Assembly (NCBI RefSeq): GCF_000763495.1
Contig: NZ_CP009576.1
Span: 630,001-694,000, forward strand
Direction of reading: 5' to 3'
DNA from: Listeria ivanovii subsp. londoniensis
GTDB taxonomy: Bacteria > Bacillota > Bacilli > Lactobacillales > Listeriaceae
DNA: 64,000 nt
The notes under the pieces are model-generated. The model did not search any database, was not told the DNA's origin, and was given only the letters and a program-made list of their open reading frames with translations. A program made the position numbers and the translations under genes. This document shows, one piece after another, positions 1 to 11,809 of this stretch (position 1 is its first letter; each line of letters starts with the position of its first letter).

Positions 1-140
1 TATTCACAGGTCAAAATATTTCCTTTTACGGACCGGTGATGGCAGGAACAGTTATTTCTATGTTGCCGTTATTAATTGTGTATATGTTTGCTCAAAAATA
101 CTTTGTACAAGGAACGGCAATGACTGGAATGAAAGAGTAG
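1..140 (+). CDS. Carbohydrate ABC transporter permease, C-terminal end (partial)
   Basis: The open frame enters from the left edge and stops at 138-140. Its last 45 residues carry the usual end of a MalG/AraQ-type permease: an EAA-region tail, one hydrophobic membrane segment (MLPLLIVYMFAQKYF) and the closing QGTAMTGMKE, which corresponds to the family motif QxxFVxG...GaVKG. It should be the inner-membrane subunit of a sugar importer. Its place nine bases before an arabinose operon suggests arabinose or arabino-oligosaccharide uptake, which is inference. The binding protein and second permease would lie to the left of the window. Confidence 0.8.
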   Translation, partial: FTGQNISFYGPVMAGTVISMLPLLIVYMFAQKYFVQGTAMTGMKE

Positions 141-149
141 GTTGGTCAA

Positions 150-722
150 ATGAAATTAGTAGAAACCCAATTTTATACAAAACTAATTGTACTCTCTGAT
201 TATCTTTTATTAGGTTTATTGTGGGTCGTGATTTCTTTACCTGTGATTACTGTAGTGCCTGCTTCTGTGGCAGTGTTGTATGTGTTGCGTCAATGGAAAG
301 GAGGGGCAACGGGACATATTTTGAATTACTTTTTTACAGGGATCCGTAAACATTTTTTTATCAACGTATTGTGGAGTTGCTTGACGGTGGGGATCTTTAC
401 AATAACGAATTTGTTGCTACAAGAAAACAATTTGTTCTTACTGATTAGTGGTTTTGTCGTATCGATCATGTATTTAATGCTTTTAATTTCGTGGACAAAT
501 AACTGTAGTCAAATGGAACAAGCGTCTTTCATCAGGATTTTTGAAGAAAGTGCTTTGGATTTGGTGGTTTCCTTTTTAAGAAATCTTAGTTGTAGTATGT
601 TGATTCTTTTGTTTACATTATTGGTCTTTTTATTTCCGCCGTTTATTTTCTTATTTGTCGGGGGATTGTGGAATTTAATGTTTTTAATATTATCAAGGAA
701 AGGGAGGTTGGAACATGAATGA
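150..722 (+). CDS. YesL-like (DUF624) membrane protein
   Basis: 190 residues with four to five hydrophobic segments (about residues 15-45, 70-90, 95-115 and 140-180) and the early LLLGLLWVVISLPVIT stretch typical of the DUF624/YesL family. Members sit next to sugar ABC importers and glycoside hydrolases in Firmicutes, but their biochemical role is not established. It starts 10 bases after the permease stop and overlaps the start of the arabinofuranosidase by 8 bases, so it belongs to the same transcript. Function in arabinan use is inferred from context only. Confidence 0.75.
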   Translation: MKLVETQFYTKLIVLSDYLLLGLLWVVISLPVITVVPASVAVLYVLRQWKGGATGHILNYFFTGIRKHFFINVLWSCLTVGIFTITNLLLQENNLFLLISGFVVSIMYLMLLISWTNNCSQMEQASFIRIFEESALDLVVSFLRNLSCSMLILLFTLLVFLFPPFIFLFVGGLWNLMFLILSRKGRLEHE

Positions 723-2235
723 AACAAAGATAAGCGTCAGACAAGCATTTGCAGTAGGAGAAATTAGTCCTCGTCTTTTTGGGTCTTTTGTGGAGCATAT
801 GGGAAGTGTAGTTTATACAGGTATTTATGAACCAGGGCATCCTACAGCAGATGAAAATGGTTTTCGCCAAGATGTATTGGAACTCGTCAAATCTTTAAAC
901 TTAGGTGTGATTCGTTATCCGGGAGGGAATTTTACTTCTGGTTATGATTGGCTGGATACCATTGGCCCAATCGATAAGCGACCGAAAAAAATTGATTTAG
1001 CTTGGCGCGGAATTGAACCAAATACATTTGGCATTCATGAATTTTTTCAATGGATACAACCAACAAATGCTGAACCTATTTTCACAGTTAATCTTGGAAC
1101 CAAAGGCATTGACGATGCTCGAAATTTAGTAGAATATTGCAACTTTGCAAAAGGCACTTATTGGAGTGATTTACGTCGGGAAAATGGTCAAGAAACTCCT
1201 TTTAATATCAAACTTTGGTGCCTCGGAAACGAACTTGATGGTCCGTGGCAAATTGGTGCTAAAAGTGCATATGAATACGGCCGTTTGGCAAATGAAGCAT
1301 CAAAAGTCATGAAGCTAGTAGACGATTCCATTGAAACCATTTTAGTAGGAAGTTCAACCCCGCGGCTAGCTAGTTATCCAAAATGGGATCGTGTTGCACT
1401 AGAACAAGCATACGAGCAGGTGGATTATTTAGCATTACACAACTATATCGATAAGTACGATGCAGATGATTTAACGCGACCACCTAAAAATGAACGGGAT
1501 GACACACCTACTTATTTAGCTAAAGCGTATCGTTTTGATCGGCAAATTGAAGAAATTATCGCGACTTGCGACTATGTAAAGGGTCTTTTACGGAGCGAGA
1601 AAACGATGTACTTAGCATTTGATGAATGGAACGTACATGCGCAACCTGAAAAAGAACATGAAGATTTTCAAATTGGGAGTCCTATTGATTGGTGTTATTT
1701 TACTATGGAAGATGCCTTGTTATTTGGTTCGCTAGGCTTAGCAATTTTGCGTCATGCAGATCGAGTGAAAATCGGTTGTCAATCTTTATTAGTAAATACG
1801 ATTCCGTTAATTTTGACAGATGCAGGAGGCCAAGCGTGGTGCAATCCAACCTATTATATTTTGGAACATCTATCCAATTATGCAACAGGAAAAGTATTAA
1901 AACAGGTAGCCACTGGGCCGACATATGATTCTGAAAAAGCACAAAATGTTCCGTTTGTAGACAGTGTCATTGTAGAAAATGAAGAAGACTTAGTTTTATT
2001 TTTTGTTAATCGTAGTCATGATAAGCAAACCGTGCAGCTAGATCACGATTTTTCTTTAGAAACTTCTGGTCAACAGATTGTCCTGAAAAGTGAACAATTA
2101 TCCGATAAAAATTTAAGGACCGCGCCAACTACACTTCTTCCACAAACAAAAACAATTAACTGCTTAGAGAACGGAAAAATAGTCGTTACACTGGACAAAT
2201 ATTCATGGAATGTTATTAAAATCAAAAAGTTATAG
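715..2235 (+). CDS. abfA: Alpha-L-arabinofuranosidase, GH51
   Basis: 506 residues, the normal length for an intracellular GH51 enzyme, which removes terminal L-arabinofuranosyl groups from arabino-oligosaccharides. The acid/base glutamate lies in WCLGNELDG (Glu173) and the nucleophile glutamate in LAFDEWNVH (about residue 304). The FGSFVEHMG and RYPGGNF motifs near the N-terminus are also family hallmarks. A C-terminal beta domain follows from about residue 380. There is no signal peptide, so substrates must first be imported. The start at 715 is preceded by AAGGGAGG. Confidence 0.93.
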   Translation: MNETKISVRQAFAVGEISPRLFGSFVEHMGSVVYTGIYEPGHPTADENGFRQDVLELVKSLNLGVIRYPGGNFTSGYDWLDTIGPIDKRPKKIDLAWRGIEPNTFGIHEFFQWIQPTNAEPIFTVNLGTKGIDDARNLVEYCNFAKGTYWSDLRRENGQETPFNIKLWCLGNELDGPWQIGAKSAYEYGRLANEASKVMKLVDDSIETILVGSSTPRLASYPKWDRVALEQAYEQVDYLALHNYIDKYDADDLTRPPKNERDDTPTYLAKAYRFDRQIEEIIATCDYVKGLLRSEKTMYLAFDEWNVHAQPEKEHEDFQIGSPIDWCYFTMEDALLFGSLGLAILRHADRVKIGCQSLLVNTIPLILTDAGGQAWCNPTYYILEHLSNYATGKVLKQVATGPTYDSEKAQNVPFVDSVIVENEEDLVLFFVNRSHDKQTVQLDHDFSLETSGQQIVLKSEQLSDKNLRTAPTTLLPQTKTINCLENGKIVVTLDKYSWNVIKIKKL

Positions 2236-2254
2236 GAAAAGTAGAGGGAAGTAT

Positions 2255-3235
2255 ATGAATAAAAAAGCGACGTACAAAAATCCGATTGTTATAGAGCGAG
2301 CTGATCCATGGATTTATAAACATACAGACGGGTTTTATTATTTTACTGGTTCGGTACCAGGATATCAGTCTATTGAACTTCGTAGAGCGAAAAATATCGA
2401 TGAACTAGGAAACGGAGAGTGCTTGTTGGTCTGGCAGGCACCGACAGAAGGCCCAATGAGTCAACTGATTTGGGCGCCAGAAATTCATTACATCAATGAG
2501 CGTTGGTATATTTACTTTGCTGCAAGCGACGATGAACAAATACGGGACCAACACCACCATCATCGAATGTTTGTAATTGAAAACCAACAAGCAGATCCTA
2601 TGAACACCGATTGGATTGAAAAAGGCCAAATTAAAACGGCTTTTGATAGTTTCAGTTTGGACGGTACAGCATTTCGACATCAAAATAAATTGTATTATGT
2701 CTGGGCACAACAAGATCCTAGAATTCCAGGAAATTCCAATCTTTATATTTCTGAAATGGAAAATCCTTGGACGCTAAAAGGCCCACAAGTTTTATTATCA
2801 ATTCCAGAATTTGAATGGGAAAAAATTGGTTTTTCTGTCAATGAAGGTGCGGCTGCCATAGTACGAAATGGCAAAGTATTTATCACCTATTCTGGAAGTG
2901 CCACAGATGAAAATTATGCGATTGGTTTACTGTGGGCAGATGAAAATGCCGATTTATTAAATGGCTATTCTTGGCATAAGGCCTCAGAACCCGTTTTTGT
3001 TTCCTCAGAAAAAAATAAACAATTCGGACCAGGACATAACTCGTTTACAAAAAGTGAAGATGACCAAGCTGATGTTCTTGTATACCATGCTCGACCAGAA
3101 AAAAATAAAGCAGGCGATCCGTTAGATAACCCCAATCGACATGCTAATGCACAAATTTTTTCATGGGATGAGGAAGGCTTCCCTGTTTTCGGTGAACCAA
3201 CAGGCTACACACGAAATATGAAAACAAATGAATGA
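2255..3235 (+). CDS. Glycoside hydrolase family 43 (arabinosidase/arabinanase type)
   Basis: 326 residues from the ATG at 2255, which follows GTAGAGGGAAG; an upstream in-frame start at 2210 would overlap abfA and is less likely. The five-bladed-propeller GH43 signs are visible: catalytic base in ERADPWIYKHTDGFYYFTGS (first Asp), the pKa-modulating Asp in FSLDGTAF and the general acid Glu in FSVNEGAAA. A C-terminal block FGPGHNSFTKS is also typical. No signal peptide. It probably releases arabinose from short arabinan or arabinoxylan pieces beside the GH51 enzyme; the exact linkage cannot be read from sequence. Confidence 0.88.
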   Translation: MNKKATYKNPIVIERADPWIYKHTDGFYYFTGSVPGYQSIELRRAKNIDELGNGECLLVWQAPTEGPMSQLIWAPEIHYINERWYIYFAASDDEQIRDQHHHHRMFVIENQQADPMNTDWIEKGQIKTAFDSFSLDGTAFRHQNKLYYVWAQQDPRIPGNSNLYISEMENPWTLKGPQVLLSIPEFEWEKIGFSVNEGAAAIVRNGKVFITYSGSATDENYAIGLLWADENADLLNGYSWHKASEPVFVSSEKNKQFGPGHNSFTKSEDDQADVLVYHARPEKNKAGDPLDNPNRHANAQIFSWDEEGFPVFGEPTGYTRNMKTNE

Positions 3236-3262
3236 TGAAATTCAGGTACAGGAGGCGTAATA

Positions 3263-4861
3263 ATGGACTCAAAAGCAGTAAAAGAAACAATTAGCCAAGG
3301 AAAGACATCATTAGGCATTGAATTTGGTTCCACTCGAATCAAAGCTGTTTTGATTGATGATTACCAACAACCAATCGCTTCAGGCACTTACGAATGGGAA
3401 AATCAATTAATCGACGGCATTTGGACCTATAGTTTGGAAGAAATCTGGCATGGATTACAAGAGAGTTATCAACAATTAAAAACAAATGTCCAAACAACCT
3501 ACGATGTAACCTTAACAACTGTAGGAGCATTAGGGTTTAGTGCTATGATGCATGGATACTTAGTTTTTGATCAATCCGATCGTTTACTGGTTCCTTTTCG
3601 AACATGGCGGAATACTATGACGGCCGCAGAAGAAAAAGAACTAACGGGATTATTTGATTACAATATCCCTCAACGCTGGAGTATTGCTCATTTATACCAT
3701 GCGATGTCGAACCAAGAAGAACATGTAAAAGACATAGCCTATATGACTACCTTAGCAGGATTTATTCATTGGCAACTCACTGGTGAAAAAGTGTTAGGAA
3801 TTGGCGATGCTTCAGGGATGTTTCCAATTGATTCTAAAACGAAGCAGTTTGATGCAGAAATGCTGGCACGTTTTGAGCAAAAAGTCATATCTGCTAAGTA
3901 CCCTTGGCAATTAAAAGAGATTATGCCACATGTCCTTATCGCTGGAAAGTCTGCAGGGATATTAACCGAAGAAGGAGCTAAACGGTTGGATCCTTCAGGT
4001 GATTTAAAGGCTGGGATTCCGTTATGTCCACCAGAAGGTGATGCAGGGACGGGGATGGTTGCTACCAACAGTGTCGCTATTCGTACCGGAAATGTTTCTG
4101 TGGGGACTTCGATTTTTGCTATGATTGTTTTGGAAAAAGAGTTAAAGAAAGTTCATACAGCATTGGACATGGTAACTACACCAGCTGGAGAATTAGTAGC
4201 GATGGTTCATGCGAATAACTGTTCTTCTGATATTAATGCTTGGATACAACTGTTTAATGAATTTGCAACACTTGGTGGACTTAACATCTCAACAAATCAG
4301 TTGTATGAACTGCTCTTCAAACAGGCTTTATTAGGGGATAAAGATTGTGGTGGTTTACTTCCTTATGGTTATTTATCTGGTGAAAACATTACGCAAGTGT
4401 CAAACGGGCGTCCGTTGTTTATTCGGACACCAGATAGTCAATTTAATTTGGCAAACTTTATGCGAAGCCACTTGTATTCAGCGTTTGGTGCATTGCACAT
4501 AGGCATGCAAATTTTAACAGATGAAGAACAGGTAGCCATTGATCAAGTGTTCGGGCACGGCGGTATTTTTAAAACTGCCGGGGTGGCACAAAAAATTTTA
4601 GCTGCGGCTATGAATACACCTGTCTCGTTAATGGAAACAGCTGGTGAAGGAGGCGCTTGGGGGATTGCTTTATTAGCAGATTATTTAAAATATGCCGAAA
4701 AAGATGTCACTTTAACAGATTATTTAGCGCAACAAGTTTTTGTACAAAGCCAAGCAATTGAGGAAAAACCTAATCCTGATGATGTTGCGGGCTTCCAACA
4801 GTTTATGCAACGCTATGAGGCGGGACTATCGATTGAAAAAACTGCAGAAGCATGGAACTAA
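3263..4861 (+). CDS. araB: Ribulokinase (FGGY carbohydrate kinase)
   Basis: 532 residues. It phosphorylates L-ribulose to L-ribulose-5-phosphate in the arabinose pathway. The FGGY kinase phosphate-1 motif is [16 protein letters not shown] near residue 17, and ATP-site blocks include [22 protein letters not shown] and GHGGIFKT. The sequence resembles xylulokinase-like kinases found with araDA in lactobacilli and enterococci more than the E. coli AraB type (from memory). The start is fixed by AGGAGG at 3249-3254. The neighbours araD and araA make the assignment as ribulokinase strong. Confidence 0.9.
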
Positions 4862-4882
4862 GGATTAAAGGAGGGGACAAAG

Positions 4883-5578
4883 ATGTTAGAAGCTTTAAAA
4901 GAAGAAGTTTATCAGGCAAATGTAGAATTACCTAAACAAGGGCTTATCAAATACACTTGGGGGAATGTCAGTGGCATTGATCGAGAAAAAGAGTTATTTG
5001 TAATTAAGCCATCTGGTGTGGATTATGATACGTTACAACCAGCAGATATGGTGGTTTGTGACTTGGCAGGTAACGTGGTAGAAGGAAAATTAAATCCGTC
5101 TTCTGATACACCTACCCATGCTATTTTGTATCAAAAATATCCAGAAATCGGAGGGATTGTTCATACACATTCAACTTGGGCAACAATTTGGGCACAAGCT
5201 GGCTTAGATGTGCCCGCCATGGGGACTACTCATGCAGATACTTTTTATGGGACAGTACCTTGTGCACGTTTTTTAACACAAGCAGAAATTGATCGAGGAT
5301 ATGAAAAAGAAACAGGAAATGTAATTGTTGAAACCTTCCAACAGCGAGGGATTGCTCCAATGGCTGTTCCAGGTGTGTTATTACATGGTCATGGATCTTT
5401 TACATGGGGCAAAGATGCTAAAAGTGCTGTAATGAACGCCGTGGTATTGGATGAAGTGTGTAAAATGAATTTATTCGCGCGACAATTGAATCATTTTTCA
5501 GAAGAGTTACCTCAGCGAATCTTAGATAAACATTATTTACGTAAACATGGTAAAGATGCCTATTACGGTCAAAAATAA
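4883..5578 (+). CDS. araD: L-ribulose-5-phosphate 4-epimerase
   Basis: 231 residues, the standard AraD length. It converts L-ribulose-5-phosphate to D-xylulose-5-phosphate, the link into the pentose phosphate pathway. Class II aldolase/adducin motifs are present: phosphate-binding [21 protein letters not shown], zinc ligands in [12 protein letters not shown] and [11 protein letters not shown], and the [10 protein letters not shown] loop. Start chosen at 4883 after AAAGGAGGGG. It lies 21 bases after araB and 43 before araA. Confidence 0.95.
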
Positions 5579-5621
5579 TCCAATAATTTTAGAATAGTCA
5601 AGAATGGAGAGGAAGAAAAAA

Positions 5622-7046
5622 ATGCTAACAATTAGTAAAAAAGAATTTTGGTTTGTCGTCGGTTCACAACATTTATACGGAGAAGAAGCATTACAAGAAG
5701 TTCGTACCCATGCAGAAGAAATGGTACAAGTGTTAAATGATAGTGGTCAATTACCTTATCCAATTAAACTACAAGAACTAGCTGTAACGGCAGAGACCAT
5801 TACGAAAATTATGAAAGAAGTCAATTATCGGGATGAAGTGGCTGGTGTCATTACGTGGATGCACACATTTTCCCCAGCTAAAATGTGGATTCGTGGCACA
5901 AAATTATTGCAAAAACCACTTCTTCATTTAGCGACCCAGTACAATGAAAGTATTCCTTGGAAAACTATAGATATGGACTTTATGAACTTAAATCAAGCAG
6001 CGCATGGCGATCGTGAATATGGTTTTATTAATGCTCGTTTAAACAAACAAAATAAAGTTGTTGTAGGCTACTGGCAACGTACGGAAATACAAAAACAAAT
6101 TGCTGAATGGATGGATGTAGCCGTAGCATATAATGAAAGCTTTGCTATTAAAGTGGCTCGTTTTGGGGATAACATGCGAAATGTAGCCGTGACAGAAGGA
6201 GATAAAGTAGAAGCACAAATTCAATTTGGTTGGGTAGTTGATTACTTTGGCATTGGGGATTTAGTTCAAGTCATTGATGCAGTAACAAAAGAAGAAGTGG
6301 ATACATTGTTTGCAGAATATCAAACGTTATACGATTTTGATTATGGGGAGTATGGCGAAGAAGAATGGACGGCACATGTAAAAGTACAAGCACGCCAAGA
6401 AATTGGTTTGCGTCGCTTTCTTGAAGCAGGAAATTACAATGCCTTCAGTACCAACTTTGAAGATTTATATGGTATGCAACAATTACCAGGTTTAGCTGTC
6501 CAACGTTTAATGGCAGAAGGTTATGGCTTTGCTGGCGAAGGAGATTGGAAAACAGCTGCGATTGATCGCTTAATGAAAATTATGGCTAGAAATGAAAACA
6601 CTGGATTTATGGAAGACTATACTTATGAATTAGCAGTAGGTCAAGAAGCGATTTTACAATCTCATATGATGGAAGTTGACCCAACGTTAGCTAATAATAA
6701 GCCGAAAATTGTTGTCTCTCCTCTTTCAATGGGGAATCGAGAAGACCCTGCTCGTTTAGTCTTTGATGGAAAGCCAGGTGCAGGTGTTGTCGTTTCTATG
6801 GCGGATTTTGGCACCCATTATAAATTATTGATTAACGAAGTAGATGTATTTGAGCCAACAGAAGCTGCACCAAATTTACCTGTTGCACGAGTAATGTGGC
6901 AACCAAAACCAAACTTCCATGAAGGCGTTCAGTCATGGATTGAAACCGGTGGCGGACATCATACCGTTATTTCTTTAAACTTAACCTCTGATCAAATGGA
7001 AATATGGGCAAAATTAGTTGATTTAGAGTACGTAACAATTAAATAA
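5622..7046 (+). CDS. araA: L-arabinose isomerase
   Basis: 474 residues, matching the family length when translation begins at the ATG at 5622; GGAGAGG sits 8 bases upstream, whereas the ATG at 5604 lies before that ribosome site. The enzyme isomerises L-arabinose to L-ribulose using Mn2+. Metal and catalytic residues are seen in [11 protein letters not shown] (Glu), FMEDYTYEL (Glu), [10 protein letters not shown] (His) and [10 protein letters not shown] (His). It completes an araB-araD-araA set encoding the whole conversion of arabinose to xylulose-5-phosphate. Confidence 0.96.
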
Positions 7047-7169
7047 AAAAAGGTCGATGTTGAGACAGGAGAGATTACTCCAAAAATCAAGTTTTTAAAT
7101 CTGCTCGATCGTTCATTTTAAATTTGAAGGTTTGGTGCATAATTTTTGTGGAAAAAAGGGGCGAATACA

Positions 7170-8201
7170 ATGGACATTCTTAAAAAGAGCTTTGGTAAAA
7201 CTGCTGATTTATTTATTTTAAAAAACAATCAAGGCTCGGAACTAGCTGTGTCAAACCAAGGAGCCCGTATCGTTTCTTTAAAAGTGATGGTAGATGGAAA
7301 ACTAAGAGAAACGGTTTTAGGATTTGATTCAATTGAAGAGTATTTAGAAAAAGATCCTTATATTGGTGCGTCAATTGGACGTTTTTCAGGCCGAATAAGA
7401 CAAGGAACATTTACCATTGAGCAGCAACAATATCAAGTTTCTGTAGATTCTGAAACGGGACATAACTTACACGGCGGTATCGGCTTTGACAAATATATGT
7501 GGGAAGCTACCGAAAAAATAGCAAAAGATTTTGTGGCTGTTACCTTCACTTTCACAAGTCCAGATGGAGATCAAGGCTTTCCGGGGAATCTAACAGCAAA
7601 AGTCACCTACACACTAACCAATAAGAATGAATGGAAAATCTTTTATACTGCGACAACTGACAAAGCGACCATATACAATCCTACCAATCATGTATATTTT
7701 AATTTGACAGGAGATAGTACAAAAGGAATCGATGAACATATTTTAAAAATGAACGCACAACGCTACATTGAAGTAGATAAACAAGTTATCCCAACAGGAA
7801 ATGTTAACAATGTCCAAGGAACGATTTTTGATTTCACTCAAGGGAAAAAAATGAGCGAACTATTTACGAATGTGGCATCAGAAGCAAGTAAAATTGATGG
7901 ACTGGATCACCCATTTTTATTAAATAAACAGTCGCCACAAGTCACACTCACTTCTCCAGATAAAAAAGTAATCATCGAAATGACAACAGACGATCCTGCT
8001 GTAGTGGTTTTTACAGCGAATTTTGGAGATGAAGGTCCTATCATGCATGGAAAAAAATTAGCGAACCATGGAGGAATTACTTTGGAAACCCAAGTTGCAC
8101 CAGGAGCAACCGATTATCCAGAGTGGGGCAACGTGATTTTAAAACCAAATGAACACTTTGAAAAAGAAACAGTTTTTAAACTAATTATTCAAGAGTCATA
8201 G
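7170..8201 (+). CDS. Aldose 1-epimerase (mutarotase)
   Basis: 343 residues from the ATG at 7170, preceded by AAAAAAGGGGCG; a TTG at 7146 is possible but lies upstream of that site. It interconverts alpha and beta anomers of a free aldose. GalM-family marks are NQGARIVSLKV near the N-terminus, YIGASIGRFSGRI, HNLHGGIGFDK and the closing LETQVAPGATDYPEWG with the catalytic Glu. It follows araA by 123 bases. It probably supplies the arabinose anomer needed by AraA; a role for another sugar cannot be excluded. Confidence 0.88.
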   Translation: MDILKKSFGKTADLFILKNNQGSELAVSNQGARIVSLKVMVDGKLRETVLGFDSIEEYLEKDPYIGASIGRFSGRIRQGTFTIEQQQYQVSVDSETGHNLHGGIGFDKYMWEATEKIAKDFVAVTFTFTSPDGDQGFPGNLTAKVTYTLTNKNEWKIFYTATTDKATIYNPTNHVYFNLTGDSTKGIDEHILKMNAQRYIEVDKQVIPTGNVNNVQGTIFDFTQGKKMSELFTNVASEASKIDGLDHPFLLNKQSPQVTLTSPDKKVIIEMTTDDPAVVVFTANFGDEGPIMHGKKLANHGGITLETQVAPGATDYPEWGNVILKPNEHFEKETVFKLIIQES

Positions 8202-8504
8202 GTGGGCAGGTGTCAATGAAGTAGACAGAAAACAAGTTAGTTTACAATGATTCAAAAAGGTTTCGTTCCTTCTGATTTGGCGTAAGCATTTTGTTGGCAG
8301 AATGCGGTCTCCTTGTTTTGAAACCCCATCAATGTATTGGCACTGCCACTAAAAAAATGAGAATAAAAGAAAAACACTTTCGTTGAATTCATGTAAAATG
8401 AAATTAATGGAGGTGTTTTTTGTGCGTACAAGAGTTATGTATCCAGTAGAAATAAAATAAGAAGCAACCAAATGAAGTAGCAAAATTGAACGGGGTTTAA
8501 AAAC
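8202..8504 (+). pseudogene. Remnant of an IS3-type transposase orfA region
   Basis: There is no intact gene in this stretch. A GGAGGTG ribosome site (8409-8415) precedes a GTG at 8422 that opens a frame reading VRTRVMYPVEIK, then TAA, then EATK and TGA. That opening resembles IS3-family (IS150-like) OrfA proteins as I remember them. Only about 18 codons are recognisable before stops and the junction with the recombinase fragment. The preceding 200 bases hold nothing I can assign. Confidence 0.45.
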
Positions 8505-8756
8505 GTGCTAGTTCGGTTTGGTAGAAATTACAAATTATCTATAACAATGAGATTTAGAAAGAGGAGACCGAAGCTTTATACTGCAAATGCAAAAGACCCA
8601 CAAAAACAAGCAGTTTATCATCAAATTGTTCGAATGTTAAATGATGAGCTATCTATAAAAGCGATTGCAGAAAAAAATAAAGTGACACGGATGACAGTAT
8701 ATCGAATAAAAAAAGAGTTGGACTCGAATCTTTCAAGTGAGTTGATTGATTCATAA
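8505..8756 (+). pseudogene. C-terminal fragment of a serine recombinase (resolvase/invertase)
   Basis: The frame gives 83 residues. From about residue 22 they read as the tail of a Tn552/Tn3-type resolvase: RRPKLYTANAKDPQKQAVYH followed by a helix-turn-helix (MLNDELSIKAIAEKNKVTRMTVYRIKKEL). The catalytic Ser domain (about 140 residues) is missing and no start with its own ribosome site is evident, so this is a decayed remnant. It marks past mobile-element activity at the right edge of the arabinose operon. Confidence 0.7.
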
Positions 8757-8784
8757 GTTCTAACGAATAGAAAAAATTAGAAGA

Positions 8785-9652
8785 ATGCTTAATTGTAGAT
8801 TATTTTTTGAGGGATTATATTGGACTGAAAATTCGTCAATTAGTAATTGTTCTATTTACTTGATTTATTTTTTTCCGATATTGTTTCAGCAAGATGAGAT
8901 AATTGTCTATAATGCTTTTGAAATGGCTATACATATTTTTAATGTATTAAAATATTATTACTTAGTCGCTCTTATTTTCATTATTATGTTTGTCTGTTTA
9001 ACCATATGGAATAATCGGACTTTTAAACAACATCTACAAAAAGAAGCAACTTATAATGTAATACAAACAGAAAGACGAAAGCAGTTTATGGAAAAATTAT
9101 ATCATGAACGTTTCGGTCCAAAGAAACAGCGTGAATTGGTTCGGTACTATTCTGTTTCTGAAGAAAAAAACTTCCTTGATGATGATATACCAAAAGAGGT
9201 AGAGCCATTTATAGCGATTATGATTCCAGTACATAATGAAGAACTTATCATTGAAGACACAATACACTATATGCTGAACAAGCTACATTATAGTAAGTAT
9301 GAAGTGCTTGTTATGGATGGCGGTTCAACAAATGGAACACCTGAAATTTTAGCATGATTACAAAAACAATATCACAATTTGAGCGTTGTTAGAGTAGAAA
9401 AAAATAAAGGAAAAGCACATGCCATTAATATTGGTGCCGGATTTGTTAGAGGAGAATTAATTTTGAGCCACAATGCAGATATCGTACCAGATGAAAAAAT
9501 ATGTTAACTATTTTATTCGGATGGAGAGCCGTAACATTGTGGCGATTACCTCCAATGCCGTAGTGCGAAATCAATCTACACTAGTTGGGAAATCACAAAC
9601 AGTAGAATTCGCGAAGATAGGTGGTATTATTAAACGTAATCAAACGGCTTGA
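8785..9652 (+). pseudogene. Broken GT2-family glycosyltransferase
   Basis: The first frame (8785-9357) has membrane segments near residues 20-40 and 50-70, then the GT-A opening FIAIMIPVHNEELIIEDTI and VLVMDGGSTNGT. A TGA at 9355-9357 interrupts it. The same frame resumes as LQKQYHNLSVVRVEKNKGKA...SHNADIVPDEK, a normal GT2 continuation. A frameshift near 9495-9502 moves the homology to the next frame (VNYFIRMESRNIVAITSNAVVRN...FAKIGGIIKRNQ), ending at 9650-9652 without the C-terminal catalytic and membrane parts. It resembles poly-N-acetylglucosamine or hyaluronan synthase-like enzymes. Confidence 0.75.
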
Positions 9653-9888
9653 GTAATTGTAGATTAACTAAATTTCTTGTTTTTTATGAAGCTATTTAAT
9701 ATGGAATAGAAAATATTGGCGTTTTCGTGTAGTATTGGGTCAATGAAATAGGAAAAAGCTCACCTAGAAGGAGAAAATGAGATATAGTTTATCGAAAGTG
9801 CAAACTGATTGCCGTTAAAATTGGGGATACAATAATTCCTGTAAGAGTTTATATATTTTTCCTTCTATTATGTTCGTTTTTTGTCATG
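9653..9888. other. Intergenic stretch without recognisable gene
   Basis: AT-rich sequence between the broken glycosyltransferase and the gdhA terminator. I see short open stretches only and no motif I can defend. It is probably part of the same degraded zone. Confidence 0.4.
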
Positions 9889-9926
9889 AAAAAGAAAGAC
9901 ACTCTTTTGGGGAGAGTGCCTTTTTT
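9889..9926 (-). terminator. gdhA terminator
   Basis: Hairpin with arms GACACTCT (9898-9905) and AGAGTGCC (9913-9920). On the minus strand it is followed by a U-rich tract (TTTCTTTTT). It lies directly after the gdhA stop; the plus-strand T tract (9921-9926) may let it work both ways. Confidence 0.8.
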
Positions 9927-9927
9927 A

Positions 9928-11322
<1,395 letters not shown>

Positions 11323-11653: not shown

Positions 11654-11809
11654 TCATAATGCTAAAGCAACGCCAAGGGATAAGACGAATTTGAATTTAA
11701 AAATCAATGCTTTAACACCATTCGCTTTCTTTTGGGTAAAAGCGCTCCATGGAAATAAGTATATAAGAGAAATTCCAAATAATCCTGCGTTTTTTCTTAC
11801 AATAGTAAT
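11654..11809 (-). other. Open frame without start in the hisE 3' region
   Basis: A 51-codon minus-strand frame between stops reads as a hydrophobic peptide (for example RKNAGLFGISLIYLFPWSAF and FVLSLGVALAL). It has no ATG, GTG or TTG at its beginning and no ribosome site, so it looks like the tail of a decayed membrane-protein gene or chance. I do not recognise it. Confidence 0.25.

Follow-up and report, generated by a model that had tools for sequence, protein, structure and literature searches.

A putative arabino-oligosaccharide gene cluster of probable Enterococcus-like origin between corA and gdhA in Listeria ivanovii subsp. londoniensis

Genes of the corA-gdhA interval

We describe here a cluster of arabinose-related genes lying between corA and gdhA in the chromosome of Listeria ivanovii subsp. 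londoniensis (assembly GCF_000763495.1). The window is the whole stretch of DNA that was analysed, 64,000 nucleotides at positions 630001-694000 of a single 3,045,035-base contig (NZ_CP009576.1), and the left part of the cluster was read from genome positions 624369-630140 (stretch L090, 12369-18140). The complete cluster has 11 same-strand genes and an opposed regulator, with its first gene about 5.6 kb left of the window, and the corA-to-gdhA distance is 15.8 kb. An earlier sequence-only reading, which called these genes an arabinan/L-arabinose operon acquired by transfer, had covered about the right-hand 60% of the cluster. We consider it quite likely that the insertion is an arabino-oligosaccharide scavenging operon of Enterococcus-like origin, recently exchanged with the L. 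immobilis lineage, the substrate being deduced from gene content. Families were assigned with Pfam, NCBIfam curated models and comparison with solved structures, and the features are as follows (window coordinates unless marked L090).

L090 12369-13268, minus strand: ArsR-type regulator, divergent from the operon and next after corA
L090 13461-14960, plus strand: GH51 no. 1, upstream of the window
L090 14973-16265, plus strand: lipoprotein sugar-binding protein, upstream of the window
L090 16360-17265, plus strand: ABC permease 1, upstream of the window
L090 17277-18140 (18140 = window 140), plus strand: ABC permease 2, of which the window holds the 3' end (1-140)
150-722, plus strand: DUF624 membrane protein (PF04854, E 6.6e-8), its role unassigned by the family match
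715-2235, plus strand: GH51 no. 2, predicted intracellular alpha-L-arabinofuranosidase (PF06964; NCBIfam ArfA 577 bits, under the curated cut-off of 625; closest solved structure 1pz3)
2255-3235, plus strand: GH43 (PF04616, E 1e-63; closest solved structures 3k1u, 5m8e, 5m8b, 9nxj, 9nxg and 3akf)
3263-4861, plus strand: FGGY-family sugar kinase in the AraB position, presumed L-ribulokinase (PF00370/PF02782)
4883-5578, plus strand: AraD, L-ribulose-5-phosphate 4-epimerase (NF006047, 390 bits, cut-off 257)
5604-7046, likely start 5622 with a ribosome site, plus strand: AraA, L-arabinose isomerase (NF002795, 765 bits, cut-off 622)
7170-8201, plus strand: aldose 1-epimerase (mutarotase, galM; PF01263, E 4e-79)
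8320-8476 (approximate), unstranded: ISLmo1-like IS3 remnant, 85-87% identical to ISLmo1 on Listeria plasmids
8505-8756, plus strand: C-terminal remnant of a plasmid-type serine resolvase (PF02796)
8785-9652, plus strand: broken family 2 glycosyltransferase (PF00535), broken in L. immobilis too
9928-11304, minus strand: gdhA, core gene and right border of the insertion (GdhA match in 25 of 25 genus genomes)

All genes named in the sequence-only reading are present with open reading frames. To judge from ribosome sites, the likely start codons are those at 2255, not 2210, for GH43, at 7170, not 7146, for galM, and probably at 5622, not 5604, for araA. The open reading frame at 150-722 had been taken for the end of the importer; its DUF624 match rules this out, and the importer proper, encoded in the operon by a binding protein and two permeases with no ATPase gene, stops at window position 140. 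GH51 no. 2 keeps the motifs WCLGNE and FDEWN, which we take to be those of the GH51 catalytic region, and the solved structures nearest to GH43 carry the names beta-xylosidase or alpha-L-arabinofuranosidase; GH43 is probably an exo-arabinofuranosidase. AraD falls narrowly under a further model, TIGR00760 (370 of 389 bits). The call of araB survives in part: an FGGY-family kinase sits in the right place, and homologues with 55-74% identity precede araD in related loci, but in a scan of this copy alone the protein stays far under the cut-offs of both curated models for ribulokinase, with 53.6 where 428 is required and 26.9 where 583 is required, and the presumed name rests on position.

Origin and exchange of the cluster

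GdhA was sought in 25 genomes of the genus, and the corA-gdhA site was compared in those with GdhA at least 95% identical plus G008; the remaining nine (GdhA 70-80%), apart from G008, lie outside this comparison. Fourteen other genomes have GdhA at that level, and in 13 of them (G013, G016, G019, G018, G022, G017, G002, G024, G012, G020, G005, G003 and G015; GdhA 96-99%) corA directly adjoins gdhA and the site is empty. The fourteenth, L. immobilis, has the same cluster at the same site, and G008 (GdhA 76%), which has no corA there, was excluded from the count. The left flank of gdhA, a comparison proposed by the sequence-only reading, is thus occupied in L. immobilis alone among these 14, and the operon is not general to sensu stricto Listeria. 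Five of the 25 genomes encode AraA; besides this one they are L. immobilis, at 98% identity, and three others at 80-83%. In G013, the nearest relative in the set, the flank of gdhA matches with 94.9% identity, and of two arbitrary pairs of stretches from these two genomes one aligns over 2440 bases at 95.66% and the other is unaligned. No description of the cluster in sensu stricto Listeria was found among the titles and opening lines of abstracts in the literature searched, a search thin on subscription papers, and in the main text of a paper on another L. ivanovii subsp. londoniensis strain the string 'arabin' occurs 0 times (PMC3019230).

The cluster of L. immobilis FSL L7-1519 has the same genes in the same order, and window positions 1-8201 are 98.4% identical to it (134 of 8200 aligned bases differ), compared with 87.4% in gdhA. 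Synonymous divergence (dS) between the two genomes is 0.029-0.134 in the 12 cluster genes and 0.687-0.945 in four neighbouring core genes (gdhA, gpm1, gpm2 and the lactonase gene), roughly 5- to 33-fold higher, with corA intermediate at 0.288. Vertical inheritance, with the cluster present in the ancestor of sensu stricto Listeria and lost from most species, would accommodate both the shared site and the decayed debris common to the two genomes, but it is at odds with a cluster of 98% identity beside a gdhA of about 87%, with the low dS, and with an AraA tree that excludes one Listeria clade. In its simple form we reject it on the dS of cluster and core and on the approximately unbiased (AU) test described below, and we regard it as very improbable; it is possible that an ancestral cluster was made uniform when the two species recently exchanged it.

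The loci examined are the best 80 of 335 relatives, and the AraA tree holds 82 proteins, including seven sensu lato Listeria rows (one of them G001). AraA of this genome and of L. immobilis join Enterococcus larvae and Enterococcus sp. BWR-S5 with support 100/96, apart from the sensu lato rows, and a single Listeria clade is rejected (p-AU 0.0066, run after the tree was seen, on the grouping named in the earlier reading). FastTree phylogenies of AraD (support 0.95) and AraB (0.99, in a clade also with Enterococcus BWB1-3) agree with this grouping. AraA is therefore placed among Enterococcus and not inside one Listeria clade, and AraA, AraD and AraB all group with those of E. larvae and its kin. 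We also note that AraA of Sedimentibacter sp. SX930 (L074) branches within the Trichococcus clade, with a very short branch length, which suggests a contaminated or misnamed assembly.

The loci of E. larvae BWM-S5 (L011) and Enterococcus sp. BWR-S5 (L012) share the order permeases, DUF624, GH51, GH43, FGGY kinase, AraD, AraA and mutarotase, with protein identities of 89-91% for the permeases, 89-90% for AraA and AraD, 71-74% for the kinase and mutarotase, and 67% for DUF624. They differ in that a further GH51-like gene separates GH43 from the kinase, and the compared stretches stop short of the regulator and first GH51. The sensu lato araR-araE-araBDA loci share the order araB, araD, araA, but they have a sugar-porter permease and a GntR/LacI-type regulator, the stretches compared contain nothing homologous to the ABC importer, GH51 or GH43 genes, and their AraA forms a separate clade. 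Descent from these loci is rejected on that clade, the AU test and the differing gene content. Base composition, also proposed as a test of transfer, is uninformative, with gene guanine-plus-cytosine fractions of 0.325-0.402 around a window value of 0.369. Acquisition by transfer, as the sequence-only reading had suggested, is borne out by the empty site in 13 of 14 close relatives together with the conflict in the AraA tree, and to judge from sequence comparison both horizontal acquisition and a two-step history, from an Enterococcus-like source to Listeria and then recently between two sensu stricto species, are well supported.

The borders of the exchange are complex. L. immobilis corA (L149 8290-9213) is 93.5% identical to that of this genome (87-99% by window), compared with 83-87% for the four core neighbours, hinting at an older exchange at this spot. 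Its final 316 bases have 7 differences against 54 in the 608 before them (Fisher p 4e-5, with the cut at 11770 picked after viewing the data), and by these counts the last part of corA is in the low-divergence tract of the cluster. The two copies of these 316 bases are equally distant from G013 (21 and 22 differences), so neither these counts nor base composition point to a direction for the recent transfer. Directly after corA the two genomes carry unrelated sequence (about 113 versus 340 bases), and the left border is therefore no simple crossover. Between the mutarotase gene and gdhA the debris is 92.9-96.7% identical with gaps not counted, near the synonymous divergence of the cluster, which makes a single age for the whole block plausible.

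The debris of mobile elements that the sequence-only reading saw beside the cluster is real; it spans 8202-9927 and consists of an insertion sequence (IS) remnant of the IS3 type, a resolvase tail and a broken glycosyltransferase. A continuous match to L. immobilis runs up to 8323, and the L. immobilis cluster differs from that of this genome in that the IS, resolvase and glycosyltransferase remnants on its right side are more complete. Its resolvase is a 219-residue open frame, 84-88% identical to L. seeligeri and L. ivanovii plasmid copies, and the glycosyltransferase has 67% matches on E. faecium plasmids. This suggests a plasmid-borne arrival, although no plasmid carrying the cluster was found in the plasmid collection, where 0 of 56 matching records cover 80% of the query. 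The Enterococcus-like cluster would have entered Listeria with plasmid and IS DNA and later moved between the L. immobilis and L. ivanovii lineages through recombination between corA and gdhA. Two 18-base segments in inverted orientation (8305-8322 and 8553-8570, 78% alike) bracket a portion of the IS and resolvase remains and may be an element-end remnant or chance. In L. immobilis the cluster and the IS remnant are separated by the gene of a 172-residue protein (L010 13228-13746) that matches no Pfam family and, by eye, carries a signal peptide, and the matching stretch is missing from the debris of this genome.

Uptake, substrate and reported phenotypes

In all seven sensu lato loci examined (L. 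valentina, L. floridensis, L. rustica, L. riparia, L. booriae, L. portnoyi and genome G001) genes for a permease of AraE type and a regulator of AraR type adjoin araBDA. We use these names on the strength of position and presumed resemblance; NCBIfam describes the L. riparia copies as a sugar porter and a GntR/LacI-like regulator. No orthologue of either was found in this genome, where the best match to AraE has 28% identity over part of the protein and the best full-length match to AraR has 25%. L. immobilis (G011), G013 and G020 likewise gave weak matches only, compared with 84-91% for AraE and 74-76% for AraR in G023, G007 and G001. We note that araE, araB and araA are interrupted in G001 (L094 7593-12966; assembly 89% complete), which could be assembly error or real decay, and that in Enterococcus lactis (L028 13-11425) an ABC-GH51-GH43 set directly adjoins an araR-araE-araBDA set, placing both uptake routes in one locus.

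The label of L-arabinose operon is thus only partly right: AraA and AraD are both over curated cut-offs, but the cluster has an ABC importer and predicted intracellular hydrolases and lacks AraE and AraR. The label of arabinan is too strong. This genome has one GH43 (G013 has none), and judged by eye the N-termini of both GH51 proteins and of GH43 lack a signal peptide, so the three are predicted to be intracellular exo-arabinofuranosidases. No secreted GH43 arabinanase was found in the genome, and the strain would on this account depend on oligosaccharides freed by others. A single OB_MalK-type ATPase match (366 residues) lies outside the operon, and this MalK/MsmX-type protein probably serves the importer.

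Bacillus subtilis has AbfA, AraBDA and a secreted GH43 endo-arabinanase. Its AraNPQ importer uses the shared MsmX ATPase (PMC5730181). The predicted likeness of the two systems lies in ABC import of arabino-oligosaccharides with a shared ATPase, intracellular arabinofuranosidases and the isomerase route; the Listeria cluster differs in having no AraR, AraE or secreted GH43. We propose that short arabinan pieces released by the enzymes of other organisms would enter through the lipoprotein-based ABC importer, powered by an MsmX-like ATPase encoded elsewhere, and would be cut to L-arabinose in the cytoplasm by the two GH51 enzymes and GH43. Mutarotase, AraA, the FGGY kinase and AraD would then yield D-xylulose 5-phosphate for the pentose phosphate pathway, and free L-arabinose would be poorly used because AraE is lacking.

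Reviews describe sensu stricto Listeria as L-arabinose non-fermenting (PMC10865800, PMC4875933). Table 3 of a further paper lists five of six named sensu lato species as positive and L. portnoyi as negative; L. immobilis and L. ivanovii are given as negative, the former from three isolates including the type strain, which carries the cluster (PMC8289207). Since no AraE or AraR orthologue was found, and the reports on L. immobilis, whose cluster is the same, are negative, gene content does not predict growth on free L-arabinose, and the negative phenotype is probably due to the lack of AraE. An alternative, a full operon for L-arabinose fermentation, with an importer that also takes the monosaccharide and with negatives that reflect strain choice or absence of induction, would fit the open frames of araA, araD, the mutarotase and the kinase, the open specificity of the binding protein, and the fact that no published phenotype was found for this very strain. 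The missing AraE and AraR orthologues, the three negative L. immobilis isolates and the negative reports for sensu stricto as a group make it unlikely.

A little less likely still is a silent or decaying island, with open frames that are unexpressed or lack a working partner. The decay of the adjoining plasmid, IS and glycosyltransferase genes and the negative reported phenotypes would agree with it, as would nonsynonymous divergence (dN) that is not low throughout (dN/dS 0.0169/0.029 in DUF624 and 0.0097/0.031 in araA). Set against this, the other ten genes have dN of 0.0014-0.0147 beside dS of 0.044-0.134, as under purifying selection, and this genome retains both the promoter and the palindromes.

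Several observations weigh against the oligosaccharide scavenging proposal. None of the closest solved relatives of the binding protein is specific for arabinose, and among NCBIfam models it matches GanS best, a protein for galacto-oligosaccharides, with a score far under the cut-off. The kinase, as noted, misses the ribulokinase models. L. portnoyi has AraE and yet is negative, so the presence of AraE is not fully predictive; its locus (L034 1696-8228) has araR, araE and araBDA in open frames despite the reported negative phenotype (PMC8289207). Finally, the L. immobilis promoter lies in an assembly break, and a broken promoter might explain its negative phenotype. The two contig ends there look by eye like plain homologous sequence, with no search for an insertion made, and poor read coverage of this strongly AT-rich stretch would explain the gap as well as an insertion would.

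In two sensu stricto members, then, an arabinose pathway with open frames is coupled to an importer of the oligosaccharide type, a trait that a standard sugar strip would miss. If the operon works, it would point to a niche on plant matter for a Listeria lineage associated with animals, to a recent-looking exchange between two sensu stricto species, and to a testable reason for the mismatch of genotype and phenotype. The cluster type is already known, and the regulator is modestly novel.

The divergent promoter and its regulator

The divergent promoter has the motif TTGACA-17-TATTAT, with a site overlapping the -35 box that we take to be cre-like. The pattern TTGACA-17-TATNAT with a cre-like overlap occurs in four of the eight loci scanned (this genome, Enterococcus ZJ1622, E. 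lemanii and E. moraviensis), and in the four without a match (L011, L012, L028 and L042) the compared stretches leave out that region. The promoter also contains two palindromes near TTAACAT-NN-ATGTTAA, 51 bp apart. Three sites score at least 12/14 in 82 kb, two of them in this promoter, and the best score of 13/14 is reached by 2 of 2000 Markov controls of the stretch; pairs 50 and 51 bp apart are also present in E. lemanii and Tetragenococcus.

ArsR proteins are best known as metal sensors. We propose tentatively, at somewhat less than an even chance, that this ArsR-type protein, a winged helix fused to a beta-rich domain, represents a novel class of regulators that respond to sugar and take the place of AraR in the arabino-oligosaccharide operons of Enterococcus, Tetragenococcus and Listeria, its C-terminal domain sensing arabinose or its oligomers, and that it binds two TTAACAT-NN-ATGTTAA palindromes 50-51 bp apart upstream of the cre-overlapped promoter. 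The regulator would repress the divergent promoter at the two palindromes until oligosaccharide or arabinose binds, and the cre-like site would add glucose repression. Tempering this proposal, the palindrome consensus was drawn from the same sequences on which it was scored, and no site at 12/14 is found in four of eight relative loci (L011, L012, L028 and L149). The lack of a site in the first three says little, as those stretches end before the left end of the cluster, but in L. immobilis (L149) the 40 promoter bases compared extend over part of the left site and score below 12/14.

The C-terminal domain of the regulator is covered by no match in Pfam or among solved structures. A predicted model of the L021 homologue consists of a winged helix and a beta-rich remainder, with low confidence (mean predicted local distance difference test score, pLDDT, 59.5). 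Homologues of the regulator, 70-81% identical, are found in L021, L030 and L078, where genes for an arabinosidase or an importer adjoin them, and in L042, near a mutarotase gene at a contig end.

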